Source: Companilactobacillus formosensis
GTDB taxonomy: Bacteria > Bacillota > Bacilli > Lactobacillales > Lactobacillaceae
Direction: 5' to 3'
DNA length: 64,000 nt
Assembly (NCBI RefSeq): GCF_005405305.1
Contig: NZ_BJDU01000005.1
Location: forward strand, 1-64,000
The position numbers were made by a program, and so were the translations under genes. Every line of letters starts with the position of its first letter. The stretch's first letter is position 1. A model generated the notes under the pieces. That model was given only the letters and a program-made list of their open reading frames with translations, did no database searches and was not told the origin of the DNA. Shown one piece after another: positions 46,751 through 60,923 of the stretch.

Positions 46751-46821
46751 ACGAGTTGTAAAGCAAAAGACATAACAAAATATTTATAAACATACACATG
46801 CAGAACTGCGAGGGATATATT

Positions 46822-49119
46822 ATGACAACAAAAGAAAACGTAAATAAATTTAATAAGAAATTTATCGTTACTGCCCTTGGAGTAGCAGCCTTAGGTTTCC
46901 AATTAATGCAAACTAACAATGTTAAAGCTGACACTACTACAGATTCTAAAACTGGCGATGCCGCTTCTGAAGATACTGTTGAAACCAAAGATAGTTCTGT
47001 AGCTGACGATTCTAGTATTCAAAAAAATGCTGATTCTACTACTGATACTGATGGAACTGATAATACAGATTCAGATAGTAAAACAGATACTGATAATGAC
47101 CAACAACAAACTGACAATACCGATACTACTGGAGAAAATTCTGATACTCAAAACCAAGACGTTAACGAAAGCAATGACCAAATTCAAACTACTTCTCTTT
47201 CAGCCACTGATCCAACTACTGGAAATGAAGATAAAAGTTCCACTGATGATCAACTAGCAAATTCTGACGAACAAACAGATTCTCAGCAAAATGCTGTAGA
47301 GAATGATAGTTCAACAACCACCGATACAGAAACTAATACTGATCCAGCTATTATTGATGGAACTCCAGCTAACAGCCAACCTGCAGTTACTAATGGTGAC
47401 CCAATCCAAAGCACTATTGCTGTTTCAGCAACAAATTCTACCGGAACAATGACTTCTGTATCTACTGCTACCAATGGTGCATCTGCTTTAATTAATTCTG
47501 ATGCAACTTCAGCAAACATCATTGTAACTATTACTAATACTTCAGATGAAAAACAAGGAGACTACGGAGAAACTGTCAGACTTCCAAAAAATGTTCAAGA
47601 AGTTGAAGGTTCAGCGAATAGAACTTCTAATGTCGTATTATCTGATGATTTTGATAATACTGCATTTATTACGGGACTTCCTGAAGGAGCAGAAGTTGTT
47701 TACTCTACTTCAACACAAAATAACTGGCAAACTGCTGAAGAATTGACTGCAGACCCTAATTTCAAATGGTCTGATGTTAATGCGATTGAAATTAATTCAA
47801 ACATTTTCCATTGGAATATACCTACAGCTTATCTAGAACCTGGAAAATCCATCGTTATGACAATTCCTATTACAGCAAAGACAACCGATCAAACAAATAT
47901 TACAGGAGTCTCTGCAGTAACAACAGAATATAATAGAGCAAGTGGCGATTATCGCAGAAAATCTAGTGTATACAGTTTTAGATACGCATCAGTTGCTGGC
48001 GAAGCTTCATCTATTTTAAGTGGTCAGTATAAAGCTGTCCTTACAAATGGCGATGATGCACCTACAGAAATTCAAAACATTATTCCAAATTACAAAGATG
48101 GAGACGCAACAATTGATAATTTCTTCGGGTTTGACACCGTTAATATCGATAAGAATCTATTAGCAAATGGTGGATACGTCTACTTGAACTTAAACAATCT
48201 AGGAATTACTAAAGAACTGAATAGTTTAGGATATTCTTATCTACTTCAAGACGGTACTGGTTTTCAACAATCTTCATATACTTATCAAATTGGTGTTAAT
48301 CCAGTTCAACTTATTTTAAGACAAGTTATCAATGCCCAAAATAGTACTACTAAAGTCGGTCAAGATTGGACTGCCGAAGACAATCTAACTTCAGTTCAAG
48401 ATAACAACGACAATGTCCTAACGGGAAATGATGCAATCAGTGCCGTAACTACAACAATCAACGACCAAGATGGCGTTCTACAAGATGGCAAAGTTGTCAA
48501 AGCTGGTACTTTTGAAGTCACTTACACATACAACTTAAAAGATGGCACAGCTATTACTAAGACCGTCACAGTTACTGCTGATCCAGCAACAAATAATTCT
48601 AGTTCATCAAGTTCTAGTTCTTCTTCTAGCTCCAATACTTCATCAAATTCAAGTTCCAACAACAGCTCATCAACTACTGATCCAACAGATCCAGTAGTAT
48701 CCCCTGATTCACCTGACAATATCAATGATCAAGATCGTCTAGTTTCTACTCACCCTGCAGATGGCGTAGTTTCACTCTACAAACTAGACACAACTAAGAT
48801 TACTAACCGTAGTTTGAACACAGCTTCCGATTGGTACAGTGACAAAGATATGACCTTTGCCGGAGAAACTTATTATCGTGTTGCTACTAACGAATGGGTC
48901 AAAGCCTCAAACGTTTATGTTTACCAAAACAAGAGCCAAGTTATTCAAACAAACAACGATCAACAACTAGTTGATTCCAAAGGTAACACTGTAACAAATC
49001 GTTCATTGCTTGCTAATACAGCTTGGTACACAGACCGTATCGCAACCATCAATGGCAAGAGTTATTATCGTGTTGCTACTAATGAATTTGTTCCAGTTGA
49101 TGCAGTTACAGTTATGTAA
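46822..49119 (+). CDS. Large secreted SLAP-domain surface protein
   Basis: This 765-residue protein has a signal peptide (about 1-36, ending NVKAD), a Asp/Ser/Thr/Gln-rich low-complexity region (about 37-200), an adhesin-like beta domain (about 200-500), an Ig-like domain (about 520-600, GQDWTAEDN ... GTFEVTYTYNLKDG), a serine-rich linker (about 600-625) and two C-terminal SLAP modules (ending YRVATNEWVKASNV and YRVATNEFVPVDAV). There is no LPXTG motif; attachment to the wall is through the SLAP modules. The ATG at 46822 has GAGGG upstream. A role in adhesion is likely but not shown. Confidence 0.85.
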   Translation: MTTKENVNKFNKKFIVTALGVAALGFQLMQTNNVKADTTTDSKTGDAASEDTVETKDSSVADDSSIQKNADSTTDTDGTDNTDSDSKTDTDNDQQQTDNTDTTGENSDTQNQDVNESNDQIQTTSLSATDPTTGNEDKSSTDDQLANSDEQTDSQQNAVENDSSTTTDTETNTDPAIIDGTPANSQPAVTNGDPIQSTIAVSATNSTGTMTSVSTATNGASALINSDATSANIIVTITNTSDEKQGDYGETVRLPKNVQEVEGSANRTSNVVLSDDFDNTAFITGLPEGAEVVYSTSTQNNWQTAEELTADPNFKWSDVNAIEINSNIFHWNIPTAYLEPGKSIVMTIPITAKTTDQTNITGVSAVTTEYNRASGDYRRKSSVYSFRYASVAGEASSILSGQYKAVLTNGDDAPTEIQNIIPNYKDGDATIDNFFGFDTVNIDKNLLANGGYVYLNLNNLGITKELNSLGYSYLLQDGTGFQQSSYTYQIGVNPVQLILRQVINAQNSTTKVGQDWTAEDNLTSVQDNNDNVLTGNDAISAVTTTINDQDGVLQDGKVVKAGTFEVTYTYNLKDGTAITKTVTVTADPATNNSSSSSSSSSSSSNTSSNSSSNNSSSTTDPTDPVVSPDSPDNINDQDRLVSTHPADGVVSLYKLDTTKITNRSLNTASDWYSDKDMTFAGETYYRVATNEWVKASNVYVYQNKSQVIQTNNDQQLVDSKGNTVTNRSLLANTAWYTDRIATINGKSYYRVATNEFVPVDAVTVM

Positions 49120-49128
49120 TAAAGCTAT

Positions 49129-49168
49129 AAAAATAGAGTCTTCACTGAAGTGAGGGCCCTATTTTTTT
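49129..49168 (+). terminator. Bidirectional terminator
   Basis: AAAAATAG pairs with CTATTTTT, with an inner CACT/AGTG stem. It also covers the stop codon of the convergent jetD. Confidence 0.75.
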
Positions 49169-49956
49169 AACCATTGATCGATTAATATTTCATATTCTGC
49201 TATGAGCTGTTCTTGTTCAACAAATTTTCCTAAAGTATTAATAGATTCCATTTCTTGACTCAAAACTTGGTTATGAATACAAATTTTTCGTGTTCTTTTT
49301 TTATCAGTTTTACCAAATCTAATTAACCAGTTAAAAATTCTTGTTGGGGTTTGAATACTAAACAACTCAGTATTCAATACTGTAAAAAGATGATCAGCAA
49401 TTCTAATTCCATTACTATCTAAATCACCCAAATATGTTAATTTCAATCCATGCTCATCAACCAAATCTTTCAATAATTCATTATAAGATTCATTGAAATC
49501 ATTCCCGGATTGATTAATCAATGGCCATTTAGGATGCAATTTATGCAACCAAATAAAGACTCCATTATTCTCAATAACAACCGCTTTTTGAGTCATCAAT
49601 TTAAACTCGTGCATTTTATCAATTTGCCAAGGATTTAAAGTAATCGGTTGCGGCAGATTAGTTTCGAAAATATTAGCACTAACAAATGACATCCCTATCA
49701 GTTGCGAACCTAATTCGTTTATCGGTTTATTCTTAAAAAAATTCTTCAAAATCCATTGATAATAATTATAAATTTTGGGATTTTCACTAGAATCATTCAA
49801 AGCATGTGCCGTGAATCCTAAATCTACGGCTTGTTGACCTCGTGGAGGCAGTGCTTTATCACTTGAGATAGCATCAAACAAACTGTCTAATTTTTCAGCA
49901 TCTTTGGGAGCTTTTTTATCAGTCCTTTTTTCAAAAAAATCTATATAACAACTCAT
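49159..49956 (-). CDS. jetD: JetD/MksG-like Toprim nuclease of a Wadjet system
   Basis: This 265-residue protein has a C-terminal DUF2220-like Toprim domain: Glu129 in KAVVIENNGVFIW and the metal-binding pair Asp178/Asp180 in LTYLGDLDSNGIRIADHL. Known JetD cuts the DNA that the SMC complex has extruded. At 265 residues it is much shorter than type I JetD (near 400); the N-terminal arm of about 120 residues is reduced or different. It starts 1 nt after the jetC stop, so expression is coupled. The family call is from motifs and gene order. Confidence 0.82.
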   Translation of the reverse strand: MSCYIDFFEKRTDKKAPKDAEKLDSLFDAISSDKALPPRGQQAVDLGFTAHALNDSSENPKIYNYYQWILKNFFKNKPINELGSQLIGMSFVSANIFETNLPQPITLNPWQIDKMHEFKLMTQKAVVIENNGVFIWLHKLHPKWPLINQSGNDFNESYNELLKDLVDEHGLKLTYLGDLDSNGIRIADHLFTVLNTELFSIQTPTRIFNWLIRFGKTDKKRTRKICIHNQVLSQEMESINTLGKFVEQEQLIAEYEILIDQWLKK

Positions 49957-49957
49957 T

Positions 49958-52900
49958 TTACGCCTTCGTCCAAATCATCGCTGGTCGAACAATATTCTTA
50001 TGAAATTTTCCATCATCTTTTTTGGCCGGTGCAATCACATCATAAGCAATATTTTCTACTCCGTCAGCTAAAATTTTATTTTGTGCTCCACTAGGCATGG
50101 TAGCAATAAAATTAAATCCAAAATGATCAATAGTCCTAGCAAAAGATTTTGCAGTCTCTGGATCAAGTTTATCAGCAAATTCATCAAACATAACCATATG
50201 TGGTGTATCTGATCTATTGGAACGATGCAGTACCATTTTAGGAACTAACAATAATGGCAAGACCATTGCTTGGGCTTTTTCAGCACCAGATCCACCTGAT
50301 TGCACAAATTTATCGTCTACAAGTTCAAATTCTCCAGTTTCTGCTTGTTTTCGATGAATCCAAATTTGAAAATCGGACCATTGTCTAATATCCAATAACT
50401 GATGAGCTTCTTCTGTAAATAATTCATCATCATCTGCCACTTTAACATCATTGGCTAATCTTTCTAAACGATTCTGAACCTCTTTCAACAAGGCTGGTCG
50501 TTGTGTTAAATGTGTATTGCGAGCTTCCTTAATAACTTGCTCATCTATGTCTTTAGGAACCAATGAAACCTTTAACTGAATTCCTTGTGATGAATGTACT
50601 CCCCGTGCCAACATTTCATTGTAGCCATCAATTAAATCATATTGATCAGAAATTTGATGAACTGCGGCTTCTAAATAAGTCATTTGAGCCACTTCATTTC
50701 CCGAGTTTAATTGTTCAAGTGATTTTTCAACAGCATTTTTATCTTTGGCTATCAAATCTTGTGCCTGATTGATATCAAACGGTACAACTCGTAAATCACC
50801 TTGATCGACTGAACGTTCACGTCTCATTGCACTAGCAATCTTGGCATGACCACGGTCTTCAAAAATGGTATCCAAAGCATACGGATCAATTCCATTCTCA
50901 TTATTAGTATGAATAAGTCGGCCAATCTTGTCAGATAAATCCCCAAAACTATTATTTCTGATTTCACTACGATGCTGATTCAAAAAATTCATTGCTTCAG
51001 AAACTGTTTCAATTTTAAATCCTTCAATCATATAAGGATTTAAAATTTTCAAGTCTGTCTCTGTTTGCATTGTCAAATCATCAAGAGTTTGGGTAAGCTC
51101 TTTTATTTGACTATTAATATTTTTAATTTCTGTTTCTACTTTAGTTTTATTAATACCTAGATCTTCTTGTGATTTTTGATATTGATTTAAAGTCTCTTTA
51201 GCTTGCGCAACTTTAAACTTCAAATCTGGATCAATCACCAATTTGGCAATTTCTTGTCTTAATTTAATTATTTTGTCATTTTGTTCATCTAAATCAAAGT
51301 TTTTATAGTTTAATTCCAAAATTTCATTTGTTCCTGAAATTTCTTTTTCAATATTAGAAATATTATTGGTTTGACGTTCAATTTTATTATCTACGTCTTT
51401 CAAATCATCATTTAATTGTTGTAATTTATCAACAATATTTTCAATTTTTGACCATAAATCTTCGTGATTTAAAAATTCTTGCAAATCCGGATTCATTTCT
51501 AGTAAATCTAAACGTTTCTGTTCCAATTCGGCGTGGCGAGTATTCATTTTAGCTGCACCAGCATTATGAACATCTAAATTATCTTGATGCAATCCTTCTC
51601 GAATACGTCCAACAACTGGACCATTAGTTCGTAAATCAATTTTACCGTCCATATTTTCACGTATCTCTGAGACAATTTGAACATCCTCAGTCAAATGCTT
51701 TTGATTATTTAAAATATTGTCATAATCTTTTTGTAAATTTTTTATTTTTCTCAAATAGTGTTTTAGATCTTTTAACATAGAACTCAAATCCGATTGATCA
51801 ACGATATTTGTTAATTGTCCTAAATTAGTCGCTATTTCTGACAAAGTATTTTCTAAAGGTAATATCTCTTTATTTAAAGACATTCTATTATTTTTTAATT
51901 CATCAAACTTCTTTTGAGCTTCTAATAAACTTGATTTTTGTTGCGTTAGTTTTTGCTTAGTTAATTTATAACTGGCAATTTTACTTAACAAATTATCCAC
52001 CAAGTCTTGTTTATCCTTACGCTGATTCTCAATATTTTTTTGCTCAGCTTGACGTTGTTGCAACAGTTGAAATTGATTTTCAGCCTGCTCTAATTGTGGC
52101 TTCAATAACTCTAGTTGATGAATATAATCGGACAAACGATGTTGAGAACGTTCTTTGATACTTCGTTGATTATTTAATTTTTGATAATTATTACCATATG
52201 GATCTAATGTTAATTCCTTTAAACGATTCAAATTTCGCCAAAATATTTCTTTTTTTAATCGATATAATCGCTTTTGTGCTCGTGATAATCTTTCGAAGAT
52301 AGCCTTTTTACGATTAACCTCCCGTTGCGTATCGGCAACAAAGTCAATAACTTGACTATCGATACCTTCTTGAGCATTTTTCATAGCTTCCAAAATTGGT
52401 GTCAGACGAGCATTTCCTGCCGTCAAAATTGGTGAAGCTAATAATCTGTATGTTGCGGCCAATTGGTGCAAACTTCTGAGGTCATTAAACCCATAAATTT
52501 TATCCGAAACATAGTTTTGAAATTCACTAACTTGAGAAAATACTCTAAAATTAGTTCCCCAACTTTCATTAGCTTGAACAAATTCTTCTCTTTCTAAACT
52601 TTGTCCCTGATTATTAGCAGTTACTAAAGGCATCTCCTCATTAAGATTGGTACTAGACATAACAAACCACCAAGTAGGTTTCCTAGTTTCACCAACTGCT
52701 CGATGTGCGCCAATCCCTACTATTACTTGCCTTTTATTAGATTTCATTAGCATATAACTGTAGCCGGTTCTAACTTTCATACTTCCGCGGCCCCATCCTA
52801 GAAGCATCCCCTCAAAAGTACGAGTATCATTTTTAGAATTGCGAATCGTCGTCTTATCTAATTTGTCAGTCCCTTTGGCAGGATTAAAGGAAGGTGTTGC

Positions 52901-53077
52901 GATTGAACCATCAATGAGCATTGGAAAGAAACAATTAGCTAAGGTAGTTTTTCCAGCCGCATTTTCACCGATTAGTGTCAAATTACCATTTTGGGAAGCC
53001 AAAATATCTAGACTTGTATAGTTATTAAAATTTCTCAAATGAAAACTTACTGGTGTTAATATTTCTTTACTCATCAT
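49958..53077 (-). CDS. jetC: JetC/MksB-like SMC ATPase of a Wadjet system
   Basis: This 1039-residue protein has an SMC/Rad50 layout. The Walker A GENAAGKTT is at residues 37-45. Two long coiled coils (about 270-480 and 530-680) flank a hinge-like segment, and the C-terminal head has the signature QSGGSGAEKAQAM and Walker B HMVMFDEFADKLD. The signature is not a plain LSGGQ, and the N-terminal region PMLIDGSIATPSFNP with RTFEGMLLGWGRG and RTGYSYML resembles Wadjet JetC proteins. It should extrude DNA loops and sense plasmid topology with JetA, JetB and JetD. It overlaps jetB by 11 nt. Confidence 0.87.
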   Translation of the reverse strand: MMSKEILTPVSFHLRNFNNYTSLDILASQNGNLTLIGENAAGKTTLANCFFPMLIDGSIATPSFNPAKGTDKLDKTTIRNSKNDTRTFEGMLLGWGRGSMKVRTGYSYMLMKSNKRQVIVGIGAHRAVGETRKPTWWFVMSSTNLNEEMPLVTANNQGQSLEREEFVQANESWGTNFRVFSQVSEFQNYVSDKIYGFNDLRSLHQLAATYRLLASPILTAGNARLTPILEAMKNAQEGIDSQVIDFVADTQREVNRKKAIFERLSRAQKRLYRLKKEIFWRNLNRLKELTLDPYGNNYQKLNNQRSIKERSQHRLSDYIHQLELLKPQLEQAENQFQLLQQRQAEQKNIENQRKDKQDLVDNLLSKIASYKLTKQKLTQQKSSLLEAQKKFDELKNNRMSLNKEILPLENTLSEIATNLGQLTNIVDQSDLSSMLKDLKHYLRKIKNLQKDYDNILNNQKHLTEDVQIVSEIRENMDGKIDLRTNGPVVGRIREGLHQDNLDVHNAGAAKMNTRHAELEQKRLDLLEMNPDLQEFLNHEDLWSKIENIVDKLQQLNDDLKDVDNKIERQTNNISNIEKEISGTNEILELNYKNFDLDEQNDKIIKLRQEIAKLVIDPDLKFKVAQAKETLNQYQKSQEDLGINKTKVETEIKNINSQIKELTQTLDDLTMQTETDLKILNPYMIEGFKIETVSEAMNFLNQHRSEIRNNSFGDLSDKIGRLIHTNNENGIDPYALDTIFEDRGHAKIASAMRRERSVDQGDLRVVPFDINQAQDLIAKDKNAVEKSLEQLNSGNEVAQMTYLEAAVHQISDQYDLIDGYNEMLARGVHSSQGIQLKVSLVPKDIDEQVIKEARNTHLTQRPALLKEVQNRLERLANDVKVADDDELFTEEAHQLLDIRQWSDFQIWIHRKQAETGEFELVDDKFVQSGGSGAEKAQAMVLPLLLVPKMVLHRSNRSDTPHMVMFDEFADKLDPETAKSFARTIDHFGFNFIATMPSGAQNKILADGVENIAYDVIAPAKKDDGKFHKNIVRPAMIWTKA

Positions 53078-54077
53078 AAGTACTCCTATTTTTTTTACTT
53101 ACTGCAAATCTCTGAATTATAGGTGTAGGAAAAATAAAATCATCATGTATATTTATCAAGCCAAAATCAATCAACGATTCCTTAACTAGGCTTAAACCAA
53201 TATTATTATTAGGAAAAATTTCAGCGATTTTTTCCTTGATTACTTCATTCAAATCCACTTCGGAAATTCCGGTATGAATTGCCCGTGCAACAGCAATAGC
53301 TACAACTGCTGGTTTAGATTTTGCTTGCTGTCTTTTTTTATCTAGTAATAAAGCGTAATTATCACCAATTTCAATATCAAATCTATCTAAATTAGCCCAT
53401 TGCTCGGCAATTTTTTCCTTTTTATCTAACAAACTCTTCCATAGCTGTGGAGATTTTTTTGAGCTGATAAAACGTTGTAATAGCAACGCGCGATTAACTC
53501 TCTGCTCATCATTAAGAGTTACAGCATTTGAACTTGTCATTTGATTTACCATAGCTTGCGCTACCAAATTAAAATCAGGACTAATATTCCAGTATTCAGT
53601 GACCTCTTGATTTTGTTCACTTTGAATTAATTCTGGGTAATCCAATTTAAACAATTTGAATCGATCAACAAATAGTTCTGTTATTATTCGACGAATTTCT
53701 TTTTCATCTAAATCCACTACTTCACTATGAACTTGTCGAATAATCGTTTGTGCCAAAACAGACCGATCTGTTTGACTAGCTTGTAATTCAGGTAAATTTA
53801 TCACAGCTTTTAAAGTAGCCAATAAAACGTGAACAGTCTCACTAGATTCATAATCAGAACCAATCATTAACAAAAGATTTTCTTGGACATTTTCCGGGTA
53901 AACGCCAATTAGATTATTTATATAACTATTAATTCTTTGTTGACCACGCGGTCTCTTGAGAACATTGATGGCATTAACCATTTCTTGCGTTGGATGATTC
54001 GGATTACTAGTAAATAAACCATTATCAATCAATTGATTTATTATTAAACGTTCTGGATTGCTGAGTTTCGTTACCAT
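53067..54077 (-). CDS. jetB: JetB/MksE-like subunit of a Wadjet system
   Basis: This 336-residue, mostly helical protein contains alternating helical and short beta regions as in the winged-helix (kite) subunit that binds kleisin. I see EIRRIITELFVDRFKLFKLDYPE and a central EQRVNRALLLQRFISSKK stretch with DNYALLLDKKR. Sequence alone would not identify it; its place between the kleisin-like and SMC-like genes does. GGAGG precedes the ATG. Confidence 0.75.
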   Translation of the reverse strand: MVTKLSNPERLIINQLIDNGLFTSNPNHPTQEMVNAINVLKRPRGQQRINSYINNLIGVYPENVQENLLLMIGSDYESSETVHVLLATLKAVINLPELQASQTDRSVLAQTIIRQVHSEVVDLDEKEIRRIITELFVDRFKLFKLDYPELIQSEQNQEVTEYWNISPDFNLVAQAMVNQMTSSNAVTLNDEQRVNRALLLQRFISSKKSPQLWKSLLDKKEKIAEQWANLDRFDIEIGDNYALLLDKKRQQAKSKPAVVAIAVARAIHTGISEVDLNEVIKEKIAEIFPNNNIGLSLVKESLIDFGLINIHDDFIFPTPIIQRFAVSKKNRSTYDE

Positions 54078-54093
54078 CTAAAATCCTCCTTTT

Positions 54094-55584
54094 TTAGAAT
54101 TCAAACTTAAATCCACAAGGTAATTGAACACTATAACTTTCATTTTTACAGTGGAGCCAAATTGGTCCAGTTTCTTTTAATGCTGTCACCTTTTTTACTG
54201 GTCTCCCAAAAGGTGCAAAACTATCGTAATGATCATAATTTGTTGCACTGTACAGACGCATTATTTCATCACGTGCCATAATCGTTTGCAATTCTAAATT
54301 TCGATCCAAACATCCATTATTTTCATCAACCATGACTAACTTTTGAAATTCCGATAAAGCTTCAGAAATGTCTAAAGCTACTTCATCGTCTTCGGCAATC
54401 GTTGGATTATCTTCAACGGTAGCGACTTTCTTAGTAGTCATATCAGCTTGGTAAACAACCGGTCCTAAGACACCTGCCTCTAACAAATCATTAGGATCAG
54501 AAACTTGTCGGTCCTGTGCTAAATGACGCGGTATTTGTTTAGGTATAGAAATAGAATGATAGCTAGTCAATAATTCATCGATTTGGTTAGTCAATTGTTT
54601 AATATCAACAGTTTGCGAGTGAATATGATCATACTCTTTACTTAACAAATTAATGGAGTCCAAAATTGTTTGGAAAATCAAGTAAATAGAATCGTAACTA
54701 CTATCTATTGCAGATGATGTAGGTTCAAAACTAGTCGTTAATATCTGTAACTGCTCCTGCACATAAATTTTATCTTGATGCATTTGAGCGGATAATTTTA
54801 ACTGATTATTTATCGCTTGATCAATTTCTAAACTATCAGAACCCTGGCGACTACGAGCTACTTGATCAGAGAAACTTTCGCTTTTAGCCAAATTTTGTAT
54901 CAATGAACCTTGTTTGATTAATTTTGTATATGCCGGTAAAGCTTTCTTGTTCAACATCTGATTCAAATGTTCAGCTACTTTGCCTCCATGATTGAAAGCT
55001 AAATCATTAGAAACTTCATCCAAATCTTCGCCTAATTTATGCATTCCTTTCATAACATCTGAATATGCTGAAACCATGTTATGAAAATCATTGAATAATT
55101 TGGTACTAGTGGCATCTAAATGTGGTGAATTTAATTTAGCTATTAAATTGCAGTATTCTTCTATACGTGCCGTATTAGCAGTAACCGTACTCTCCGCATC
55201 TAAAACTTTCGGAATCATTGTTAAATATTCGATTCCTCGGCTGGTAATTCGATAAACCGGTGCCTGTTGCATATGATAAGCTCCACTAGCCATGCGAACC
55301 CGGATTTTACGTGGTGAAACCTCTACAAAACTGGCTTCTTCTTCTAAAACTTTTAAAACATTTTTTAAGACAGCGTCAGTAATCATTTTTTCATTAGCTT
55401 TACCATCTAAATAATTGATATTGTATTGTTCAACTATAAATCCTAAAGTACGAGGTATATCAGCGCTTGCTCGATTTCCATAGAGAATTGTCAAGATATT
55501 CCACCCCGCTAAAGGATGATCTCGACTACGTCCCAAATTAGTTGCTAAAAGCAAATTTCTTAAATCATCATTAATACCTAACAT
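54094..55584 (-). CDS. jetA: JetA/MksF-like kleisin subunit of a Wadjet system
   Basis: This 496-residue protein has an N-terminal helical/winged region (MLGINDDLRNLLLATNLG onwards), a middle of long helices (about residues 140-350) and a C-terminal beta-rich segment ending LPCGFKFEF. This fits a kleisin that bridges SMC heads. It is first in the operon jetA-B-C-D. The ATG at 55584 has GGAG 11 nt upstream; an in-frame ATG at 55608 lacks a ribosome site. The assignment depends on gene order and size. Confidence 0.75.
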   Translation of the reverse strand: MLGINDDLRNLLLATNLGRSRDHPLAGWNILTILYGNRASADIPRTLGFIVEQYNINYLDGKANEKMITDAVLKNVLKVLEEEASFVEVSPRKIRVRMASGAYHMQQAPVYRITSRGIEYLTMIPKVLDAESTVTANTARIEEYCNLIAKLNSPHLDATSTKLFNDFHNMVSAYSDVMKGMHKLGEDLDEVSNDLAFNHGGKVAEHLNQMLNKKALPAYTKLIKQGSLIQNLAKSESFSDQVARSRQGSDSLEIDQAINNQLKLSAQMHQDKIYVQEQLQILTTSFEPTSSAIDSSYDSIYLIFQTILDSINLLSKEYDHIHSQTVDIKQLTNQIDELLTSYHSISIPKQIPRHLAQDRQVSDPNDLLEAGVLGPVVYQADMTTKKVATVEDNPTIAEDDEVALDISEALSEFQKLVMVDENNGCLDRNLELQTIMARDEIMRLYSATNYDHYDSFAPFGRPVKKVTALKETGPIWLHCKNESYSVQLPCGFKFEF

Positions 55585-55644
55585 TATCCTGAATTCTCCA
55601 TTTTGCATTTAATTTAAATTATGAAGAAAAAAATTAACTTCTGC

Positions 55645-55674
55645 AACGATATACTCAAATAATAAAATATCGTT
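55645..55674. promoter_or_regulatory. 8-bp inverted repeat in the jet operon promoter region
   Basis: AACGATAT (55645-55652) and ATATCGTT (55667-55674) are perfect inverted arms with a 14-nt spacer. On the minus strand the region also holds TTGAGT and AT-rich -10 candidates. No T-run follows, so an operator is more likely than a terminator. Confidence 0.5.
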
Positions 55675-55697
55675 AATATAAACTACGTATTTTTAAT

Positions 55698-55728
55698 AAA
55701 AAAAACCGCTAATCAAATGATTAACGGT
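55698..55728 (-). terminator. Terminator of tRNA-Gln
   Basis: ACCGTTAATC pairs with GATTAGCGGT (one G-U, loop ATTT), followed by TTTTTTTT on the minus strand. Confidence 0.9.
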
Positions 55729-55760
55729 CAAAATATCATATTTAACTTTAAAATTTTTTA

Positions 55761-57960: not shown

Positions 57961-58956
57961 TTATTCGCCAGGATCGATACGATCAATAATCGCCCTAGCA
58001 TCATCAGTTGTTTTAGTTTGCATCAAATCATTTCGAATAGCAGAAGCACCCTTCATGCCACGAACGTAAATCTTAAAGAAACGTTGCAATGGAGCAAAAT
58101 GTCCCGGAATTCCTTTAGCGACAAATTGGTCATACAAATCAAGTTGATAACGTAGCAAATTCAACAATTCATGTTCAGAGTGATGTTGAGGAGTTTTTTC
58201 AAAGGCATACGGATTCATAAAAATCCCTCGTCCTATCATAATCCCATCAACACCTGGATGAGCATTAGCTAAATCAATCCCAGCTTGATAATCAGCAATA
58301 TCACCATTAATCTGTAACAAAGTATCAGGAGCATAAGTGTCACGCATTTGAACTAAATCATCGATCAATTCGTAGTGAGCTGGCACTTTACTCATTTCTT
58401 CTCGAGTTCGCATATGAACTGTTAAAACTGGAACTTGTTGTTTCAATAAGAATGGTATCCAAGTTTCATATTCGTGCACATCACTGTAACCAATCCGTGT
58501 TTTAACTGTCACAGGTAAATCGCTTTGACGAGCACCTTCAATGACCTCTTTAGCAGTATCAAAATGACGAATCAAATCACTACCACTGTGGTTTTTGATA
58601 ACGGCAATGTCTGGACACCCCATGTTGATGTCAATTGCTTCATAGCCTTGCTTTTCTACTTCTTTAGCAGCTTTGGCAAAGTCAATTTCTGAATTACCCC
58701 ACAATTGCACGATTGGCTTAGGATTTTCAGCTGGATCGATGTACAAACGACCCTTAGTAGTTTCTTTAGCTAACGGATGAGTAATACTCAACGCATTAGT
58801 AAATTCAGTATAAAAATTATCCGGAGCTGCAGCCTTCATCACAACTCGACGAAAAACTGAGCCGGTTACAGCTTCCATTGGTGCCAAACTAAAGAAAGGA
58901 CGATTCTCATCTTTAGCTTTTTTGGCGATGCGATTCCAGTATGCTGACTGGGTCAC
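57961..58956 (-). CDS. tRNA-dihydrouridine synthase (Dus family), copy 1
   Basis: This 331-residue FMN enzyme reduces uridine in tRNA D-loops. Motifs are FSLAPMEAVTGSVFRR, IDINMGCPDIAVIKNHSGSDL (with the catalytic Cys in NMGCPD), VKTRIGYSD and IMIGRGIFMNPYAF. The start is probably GTG at 58956, 7 nt after AGGAAG, which aligns with copy 2 (MTxSxxW). The longer frame begins with another GTG at 58974. It is about 45-50% identical by eye to copy 2 at 59934-60923, from which it is divergent. Confidence 0.9.
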   Translation of the reverse strand: MTQSAYWNRIAKKAKDENRPFFSLAPMEAVTGSVFRRVVMKAAAPDNFYTEFTNALSITHPLAKETTKGRLYIDPAENPKPIVQLWGNSEIDFAKAAKEVEKQGYEAIDINMGCPDIAVIKNHSGSDLIRHFDTAKEVIEGARQSDLPVTVKTRIGYSDVHEYETWIPFLLKQQVPVLTVHMRTREEMSKVPAHYELIDDLVQMRDTYAPDTLLQINGDIADYQAGIDLANAHPGVDGIMIGRGIFMNPYAFEKTPQHHSEHELLNLLRYQLDLYDQFVAKGIPGHFAPLQRFFKIYVRGMKGASAIRNDLMQTKTTDDARAIIDRIDPGE

Positions 58957-59096
58957 ATTCTCACTTCCTATCACAATAAATTACAATACTATCAACTATA
59001 CCGAGTTTGGTCAGTTCATTGCAAGCTTTAAGTTTTAATTTGCATTGTAAGCGTATTAATGAAATACTAAAAACATAATCTTTAAGGGGGCTAATT

Positions 59097-59933: not shown

Positions 59934-60923
59934 GTGACAAAATCAACTTTCTGGCCGGATATTGCCGCCAAAGCCAAATCAGAACACCGTCCCTTTTTTA
60001 CGATGGCACCAATGGAAGCTGTCAGTAACACTGTTTTTCGCCAAGTAATCACTAAAGCCTATGCTCCAGATACCTTTTTCAGTGAATTCGTCTACGCTAA
60101 AGGTATCACCGATCCAACGACCAAATTTCCTGTTGATGGACGTTTGTACGTCGACAAAACTGAATCAAAGAAGCCTGTTGTTCAATTGTGGGGCAACGTC
60201 GCCGAAGACTTCGAATCTGCTGGCAAAGCTGTTCAATCACAAGGTTTCCCCGCAATCGACATTAACACTGGTTGTCCCGATAAAACTGTTATCAAGAATC
60301 ACGGTGGTAGCGACTTGATCAGACACCACGACGACTTAGTAAAAATTGTTGAAGCTGCCAAAAAGACCGACCTAGCCGTCAGCATCAAAACTCGTCTTGG
60401 TTACAGTAAGGCTGAAGAATTTAAAGAATGGATTCCTTTCTTGTTAGAACAACACGTTGATCTATTGACGGTTCACCTACGCAGCAAGATGGAGATGAGT
60501 AAAGTTCCAGCCCATTTTGAAGTTATTGATGATATTATCAAAATGCGCGACGAAATTGCTCCAGAAACTCTTATCCAAATCAATGGTGACGTCGAAGATT
60601 TCCAAGCAGGATTAAAACTAGCTCAAGAACATCCCGGACTAGATGGAATCATGATTGGCCGTGGCGTTTTCCACAATCCTTTTGCCTTCGAACCAGTACC
60701 TAAAGAACATTCATTAAATGAATTGTTGGGACTTTTGAGAATGCAACTAGACTTATTCGATAAGTTTGCCACTCATTACGACGTACCACGATTCCCAGCC
60801 TTGAAACGTTTCTTCAAAATCTATGCTCGCCCAGAATTAGGCGCCACGGATTTGCGAAACAAAATGTTACAAGCAAACTCAACTGACGAAGTTAGAAAGA
60901 TTTTGGATGATTTTCAAAAATAA
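59934..60923 (+). CDS. tRNA-dihydrouridine synthase (Dus family), copy 2
   Basis: This 329-residue paralogue has FTMAPMEAVSNTVFRQ, IDINTGCPDKTVIKNHGGSDL with the catalytic Cys, IKTRLGYSK and IMIGRGVFHNPFAFE. The start is GTG, with AAGGAAG upstream. Having two closely related copies about 1 kb apart suggests duplication and possible division of tRNA positions between them. I cannot tell which copy modifies which positions. Confidence 0.92.
   Translation: MTKSTFWPDIAAKAKSEHRPFFTMAPMEAVSNTVFRQVITKAYAPDTFFSEFVYAKGITDPTTKFPVDGRLYVDKTESKKPVVQLWGNVAEDFESAGKAVQSQGFPAIDINTGCPDKTVIKNHGGSDLIRHHDDLVKIVEAAKKTDLAVSIKTRLGYSKAEEFKEWIPFLLEQHVDLLTVHLRSKMEMSKVPAHFEVIDDIIKMRDEIAPETLIQINGDVEDFQAGLKLAQEHPGLDGIMIGRGVFHNPFAFEPVPKEHSLNELLGLLRMQLDLFDKFATHYDVPRFPALKRFFKIYARPELGATDLRNKMLQANSTDEVRKILDDFQK

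Follow-up and report, generated by a model that had tools for sequence, protein, structure and literature searches.

A compact four-gene operon in Companilactobacillus formosensis, probably a divergent Wadjet variant related to type II

Wadjet systems are bacterial machines that find and cut invading plasmids. The window analysed here, a stretch of 64,000 nucleotides (nt) from Companilactobacillus formosensis (NCBI RefSeq assembly GCF_005405305.1, contig NZ_BJDU01000005.1, positions 1 to 64,000), contains four collinear minus-strand genes spanning 55584–49159, in the order JetA-, JetB-, JetC-, JetD-like (Table 1). A first-pass annotation had proposed four open reading frames (ORFs) of 496, 336, 1039, and 265 amino acids (aa) at this locus, and all are present; it had also described overlaps, which is the case only for JetB and JetC (11 base pairs, bp), while JetA and JetB are 16 bp apart and JetC and JetD 1 bp apart. 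The JetA-like frame has an alternative start at 55608, which would give 504 aa. The arrangement is not a chance one: of 48 named loci, 41 have these four genes in this order and similarly tightly spaced, none of them truncated judging by ORF size. By sequence, JetC and JetD are detectably Wadjet proteins, closest to those of type II, and the four-gene system as a whole fits none of Wadjet types I, II, or III.

Table 1. Features of the Wadjet-like operon and its surroundings, in window coordinates.
Feature	Coordinates	Strand	Basis
JetA-like probable kleisin, 496 aa	54094..55584	-	ORF call
JetB-like KITE protein, 336 aa	53067..54077	-	ORF call, predicted fold
JetC-like SMC ATPase, 1039 aa	49958..53077	-	ORF call, PADLOC, best solved relative
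JetC Walker A GENAAGKTT, residues 37–45	52943..52969	-	Alignment
JetC central mini-hinge, about residues 461–540, limits by eye	51458..51697	-	Conservation and proline/glycine profile
JetC ABC signature SGGSGAEK, residues 927–934, family-specific	50276..50299	-	Motif comparison
JetC Walker B MVMFDE, residues 961–966	50180..50197	-	Alignment; PF13558, E 9.2e-9
JetD-like Toprim nuclease, 265 aa	49159..49956	-	ORF call, Pfam, PADLOC
JetD, span of predicted catalytic residues E129, D178, D180	49417..49572	-	Invariant in 23/23; aligned with VVEN and GDFD of type II JetD
Acquired segment, about 6.6 kb	49147..55753		Absent at the same site in two close relatives
tRNA-Gln(CTG), 3' end bounding the acquired segment	55761..55832	-	tRNA call, alignments
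Terminator-like hairpin between tRNA-Gln and operon	55704..55729	-	Weak: 4 sites in region, 3.0 expected

Two operons, one of type I and one of type II, were used as controls, and each strongly matches its own Jet models in the same libraries; in the counts below, the window's gene is included with those of its relatives. The best PADLOC match of JetC, the putative structural maintenance of chromosomes (SMC) ATPase, is the JetC2 model (E-value 9.2e-26), and its best solved relative is the JetC of the type II complex 9qe0 (E 3.9e-19). It also matches TIGR02680, at 38 bits (E 3.8e-10), below the cut-off of 462.85 bits. The motifs GENAAGKTT and SGGSGAEK lie where the first-pass annotation had placed them: residues G37, N39, G42, K43, and T44 of the Walker A motif are invariant in 24 sequences, and the Walker B motif MVMFDEFADKLD is likewise in place. 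The ABC signature reads SGG[S/F]GAEK in 23 of 24 aligned members, with STGSGAER in a distant one. In the sampled known types it reads KSGGETQ (type I, 10 of 10), SGGE[K/R] (type II, 18 of 18), or SGGE (type III, 9 of 10, with none found in the tenth).

Conservation and proline and glycine content place the arms of JetC at about residues 262–460 and 541–740, both of low conservation and poor in these two amino acids, flanking a central domain (“mini-hinge”) of about 80 residues; these limits, like those given for the other types, were drawn by eye from such profiles and not from structures. There is no cysteine in residues 461–540 of the window's JetC, and hence no zinc hook. This bears on the possibility that JetC is a repair ATPase of the SbcCD/Rad50 type, membership of which the first-pass annotation had named as the finding that would count against a Wadjet assignment. 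The idea has some basis in the SbcC_Walker_B family PF13558, matched by all 24 JetC family members, and in weak Rad50 matches over the coiled coil. However, both JetC controls, of type I and of type II, match PF13558 too, JetC reaches 22 bits with Rad50 models whose cut-offs are 700 and 1000, and besides the missing cysteines there is no SbcD/Mre11-like gene among the four genes of the operon, which together make a repair ATPase very improbable. Lamassu was considered as well and rejected: LmuB is matched only weakly, over the coiled coil (E 8.5e-5), and PADLOC finds no match to LmuA or LmuC.

JetD matches DUF2399 (PF09664; E 6.8e-10, 39.4 bits against a cut-off of 23.4) and, as a borderline case, JetD_C (PF09983; E 9.7e-5, 22.2 against 22 bits, where the type II control itself scores 21.8). 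The first-pass annotation had let its reading depend on a Toprim fold in this protein, and these matches, the second of them barely, suggest one; the Toprim residues it named, E129, D178, and D180, are found at those places in every one of the 23 aligned JetD sequences. PADLOC returns JetD2 as best match (E 1.1e-14), and that model too is matched by all 23. JetD aligns with type II JetD over the C-terminal 180 residues only, Pfam finds no DUF3323 domain (type II control, E 4.8e-41), and its score to TIGR02679 is 35.1 bits, below the 196-bit cut-off.

The first two genes are much harder to recognise. Pfam searches of the window proteins gave nothing usable for either JetA or JetB, and, because the type I and type II control operons match their own models strongly in the same libraries, these blanks are real. 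The type II JetB family DUF2398 (PF09661) is matched by none of 47 JetB sequences, against E 4e-108 for the type II control; Pfam MksE is matched by one of 47. With PADLOC, the best-matched JetB model of any kind is matched by 8 of 47 at E ≤0.01 and the best-matched JetB2 model by 5 of 47 (best E 4.6e-6); some JetB1 models are faintly matched, including by the window's JetB. Neither type I family, DUF4194 for JetB or PF18982 for JetA, is matched, although the type I control matches both. For type II JetA, DUF2397 (PF09660) and PADLOC JetA2 are matched by none of 47 sequences, against E 5e-146 and 1.5e-191 for the control.

Structure prediction is more informative for JetB. Its AlphaFold2 model (predicted local distance difference test, pLDDT, 87.2) has as top Foldseek match chain 9qe0_D (384 residues) of the N. 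vireti Wadjet-II JetABC dimer, at E 1.8e-7, and as second match chain 8as8_C (195 residues) of E. coli JetABC, at E 8.9e-4. These are the sole PDB matches at E ≤0.001; the next is a chain of the MukBEF head module (E 0.013). The PDB titles name complexes, and from their lengths the first two chains were taken as JetB and the third as MukE. A Wadjet JetB/MukE-like (KITE) fold is therefore predicted for JetB. In PMC12647877, one JetB is described per JetC dimer in type II and two in type I; a large single-chain JetB would fit the type II stoichiometry. There is also a match between the C-terminal half of the window's JetB and the N-terminal half of its type II counterpart (E 6e-4), a hint of reordered halves; the other half match that a circular permutation would bring is not significant (E 0.11).

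For JetA the AlphaFold2 model is less certain (pLDDT 75.6; predicted template modelling score, pTM, 0.49). Its best Foldseek match is chain 3euh_B of a MukE–MukF complex (321 residues, MukF by length) at E 1.3e-3, and other Muk chains, including MukF(1-287) 1t98, are scattered among unrelated helical proteins at E 0.02–0.2. On this model JetA is a probable, not a proven, kleisin.

How the system stands to the known types was approached by profile-profile comparison with 18 type II and 8–10 type I proteins, type III being compared through PADLOC models only. Against type II, JetC reaches a probability of 99.8% (E 9e-28) and JetD 98.6% (E 1e-15); against type I the values are 96.5 and 82.7%. JetB reaches 15–17% against type II (E ~0.002), which is suggestive only, and JetA has no significant match to the proteins of either type. 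In a tree of JetC heads from 12 family members, 18 type II, 10 type I, and 10 type III systems (the last as root), the 12 family heads form one clade (ultrafast bootstrap 100), sister to the 18 type II heads (ultrafast bootstrap 97, FastTree 0.99). The general description of the operon in the first-pass annotation, a divergent and small variant, is borne out: Wadjet models, above all those of type II, are matched by JetC and JetD, and the fold matches of JetB and JetA agree. Its Wadjet/MksBEFG label was right as to a Wadjet relative, but the operon is nearer to type II than to type I/MksBEFG, while lying outside the sampled type II.

The nearest described system is accordingly type II (N. vireti nvJET, PDB 9qe0; DUF2397-DUF2398-TIGR02680-DUF2399), with which the family has in common the A-B-C-D gene order, homologous JetC and JetD, the nearest predicted JetB fold, and a large single-chain JetB. 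It differs in JetA and JetB, which in the family are below Pfam detection; in a JetC shorter by some 340 residues (1039 rather than about 1380 aa), whose central domain has about 80 rather than about 155 residues and whose arms are each about 140 residues shorter (by eye); in the JetC signature, SGG[S/F]GAEK rather than SGGE[K/R]; and in a JetD of 265 rather than about 440 aa that lacks the N-terminal DUF3323. Type I/MksBEFG (E. coli GF4-3, PDB 8as8) has the same gene order, similar JetC and arm lengths, and a Toprim JetD, but a JetB of about 230 rather than 336 aa and a hinge region of about 180 residues. “Small” thus describes the operon well by comparison with type II JetC and JetD, and less well beside type I, whose sampled JetC (about 1150 aa) is only some 100 aa longer. 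Type III likewise combines an SMC protein, a Toprim nuclease, and two partners, but its genes are in the order D-A-B-C (one operon, L178, by PADLOC) rather than A-B-C-D, and its JetC has about 1470 aa.

The family could also be merely a fast-evolving branch of type II, with arms and hinge shortened and no separate standing. Type II is after all nearest when JetC and JetD profiles are compared and when the JetB fold is searched, the gene order is the same, the sister position is well supported, and FastTree support for a type II clade excluding the family is only moderate (0.88 in a tree without type III, 0.77 with it). On the other hand, the 18 type II heads form a clade of their own, without this family, at ultrafast bootstrap 100, and none of the three ingroup clades has a longer stem than the family (1.77). 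On average its JetC heads are identical at 22% to type II, 17% to type I, and 13% to type III, where the known types share 20% (I–II) and 18% (II–III) with each other; and JetA and JetB miss the type II Pfam families that the control matches so strongly. A simple type II branch is on balance doubtful, if a real possibility. The system is conserved and probably functional, and is most aptly regarded as a new Wadjet variant, sister to type II, which may merit a Wadjet type of its own. Among the matches listed in a search of the titles and abstract openings of the Wadjet literature, a scope that leaves aside preprints and most subscription papers, the family is not described.

The distribution of the operon is patchy. 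A JetC search (E ≤1e-3) of 301 genomes of the window's family, by inference Lactobacillaceae, gave matches in 55. On our reading of these matches, 38 belong to this JetC family, two of them as distant relatives, and the remaining 17 are only short ATPase matches. Judged by ORF length, the 38 loci comprise 26 intact, seven broken, two without JetD, two at contig ends, and one distant; a stricter split made afterwards, by stops inside aligned genes, moves two (G185 and G229) to the broken class, leaving 25 intact, nine broken, and one at a contig end. A single scan through 84,980 species genomes with the peptide patterns gave 139 matching stretches. Of these, 48 are relatives, all of them in genera that we take to be Lactobacillaceae. 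By ORF length, 41 of these named loci are intact in the same order, six broken, and one at a contig end; by the stricter check 40 are intact and eight broken, L069 having a stop in JetC besides its contig end and L111 a JetA that ends early. The broken copies are in eight species (L069, L070, L081, L093, L102, L107, L108, and L111), six of them in JetC, and the operon has apparently been inactivated repeatedly. Two loci, L064 and L065, hold a distant version with JetC only 25–28% identical; in L064 the signature is STGSGAER, and in L065 JetC is split. A set of 299 phylum genomes gave, apart from the window's own, best matches that are mostly long frames (about 1365–1470 aa) matched in the C-terminal ATPase part only, and two such frames (G302 and G304) are TIGR02680 matches. 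Searches with the window's JetC, and one with the family alignment, found no relative in 72,556 plasmid (PLSDB) or 50,697 phage records or in viral contigs; the viral and genome-contig scans were seeded by short exact peptide patterns, so that distant relatives could be missed.

At the genomic site, the roughly 6.6 kb of the window correspond to only 133 and 119 bp in two same-genus relatives with both flanks in common (92–95 and 88–94% identity in the main aligned blocks); in the first of them there is no JetC match anywhere in the genome (the second was not searched for JetC). A tRNA-Gln gene lies just upstream of the operon, and one flank of the segment ends a few bases from its 3' end. The 3' ends of tRNA genes are a usual setting for acquired defence genes. 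Presence or absence of the segment at this tRNA end in close relatives shows that the whole operon was acquired or lost in one piece, at an integration site. In G229, a third relative, which matches C. futsaii, the same tRNA-Gln is occupied by an element that has a gene read as integrase-like (L206:6270–14619); between this element and the operon lies a partial duplicate of the tRNA 3' end. No exact direct repeat of at least 8 bp was found at the segment ends (two 120-bp stretches compared), and no integrase accompanies the operon in the window. As a trait of the family the association was rejected: none of 38 relative regions has a tRNA-Gln, and it is thus local to the window's genome and its near relative.

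The integrase-like element at this tRNA end could conceivably speak for defence against phages, or against linear or replicating DNA of other kinds, and not against plasmids. The Wadjets studied so far, however, act on small circles and spare linear DNA (PMC10586767), and a phage-directed role is decidedly unlikely.

Other neighbours were noted in passing. Adjoining the operon, at 46798–49119 on the plus strand, is a gene for a large Ser/Thr/Asp-rich secreted protein with SlpA domains, which is not equally long in a close relative (773 versus 808 aa). Further away, two similar tRNA-dihydrouridine-synthase-like genes (57961–58974, minus strand, and 59934–60923, plus strand) flank a phosphoglycerate-mutase-like gene, all named by reading.

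Two genomes of one genus, g9 (L041:5798–11404, and L047 on the reverse strand), have full-length JetB and JetC and a JetA frame open throughout, in one case with no usual start codon at the expected place, but no JetD was found anywhere in either genome, while three positive controls were detected. Between the two, the ratio of nonsynonymous to synonymous substitution (dN/dS) of JetA, JetB, and JetC is 0.09–0.14, which indicates purifying selection; the range is approximate because dS, at 1.8–3.0, is near saturation. This retention of JetABC without its nuclease is what could be expected of a second condensin, working on the chromosome or nucleoid with JetD as an accessory, and there is precedent: MksBEF, for which such work has been proposed, is also proposed to have arisen by loss of JetD (PMC10586767). 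The g9 form parallels that loss in a different lineage, and could possibly be a second, independent MksBEF-like repurposing. For the family at large such a role is unlikely. JetD is at full length in all 48 loci of the genome collection and in 33 of 38 regions, the exceptions being one broken region, two cut by contig ends, and two that are JetD-less. Patchy occurrence, in 38 of 301 family genomes, and the lack of the operon at this site in close relatives are moreover not what a core chromosome function would lead one to expect.

Plasmid content was examined through Rep_3 initiators (PF01051), found in 83 of the 301 genomes. With carriers split by ORF length, the count is 3 of 26 for intact operons, 5 of 7 for broken ones, and 74 of 263 for non-carriers; five genomes were set aside (one distant, two with contig-cut operons, two JetD-less), and one of these has Rep_3. 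In a second set, 21 genomes from named loci thought to be absent from the first, they occur in 8 of 19 intact and both broken carriers. Combined, Rep_3 is present in 7 of 9 broken versus 11 of 45 intact carriers (Fisher P 0.004), or 8 of 11 versus 11 of 44 by the stricter split (P 0.005), which set aside two JetD-less, one contig-cut, and one distant genome. The comparison is exploratory and was not planned beforehand, although the ORF-length split preceded the Rep_3 search, and draft quality varies; it suggests that plasmids accompany loss of the operon.

Taken together, we think it likely that the operon encodes a chromosomally borne SMC complex that restricts small circular DNA, and that it is a divergent sister of Wadjet type II. 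By analogy with type I and type II biochemistry, JetC, a short-armed ATPase whose hinge is very small, would be bridged by the kleisin-like JetA and bound by the KITE-type JetB; JetABC would load on DNA and extrude it using ATP. On a small circle the motors would run out of DNA and stall, and JetD, a short Toprim nuclease, would then cut the circle through the metal site formed by E129, D178, and D180. The small hinge might leave extrusion and cutting intact while large DNA-bound obstacles were poorly bypassed.

Several observations weigh against this interpretation. None of 47 JetA sequences matches any JetA model of Pfam or PADLOC at E ≤0.01, and the fold match of JetA to the MukE–MukF chain is weak. 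The part of JetD preceding the Toprim domain is about half the type I length. There is a stop in JetC of the close relative C. futsaii, and the two g9 genomes, which keep JetABC without JetD, indicate that the complex can be useful without a nuclease. The absence from PLSDB may reflect merely chromosomal residence. As for plasmids, Rep_3 is no rarer in intact carriers than in non-carriers (11 of 45 versus 74 of 263, P 0.72); a within-genus deficit in the intact carriers of the first set (3 of 26, permutation P 0.042) weakens to P 0.088 by the stricter split (3 of 25), and is not repeated in the second set (8 of 19).

A bolder proposal, on which we are nearly evenly divided but lean slightly against, is that this is a fourth Wadjet type, so far confined to Lactobacillaceae, with a rudimentary hinge and an altered ATPase signature; that it is nature's equivalent of the Wadjet core engineered without a hinge; and that in one lineage it has become nuclease-free, with JetABC repurposed. 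According to PMC12647877, the role argued for the SMC hinge is obstacle bypass, the hinge being dispensable for extrusion, and channel-less hinges are linked to long arms, a few type III cases excepted. A natural Wadjet on the type II side with short arms and a hinge of about half size would test this hinge/arm rule directly, and the JetD-less lineage would allow a test of how an SMC complex could pass from defence to chromosome work. Since JetA is unseen by PADLOC models and JetB barely registers, the system has probably been missed in defence surveys of food lactobacilli, and it may also explain poor transformability there.

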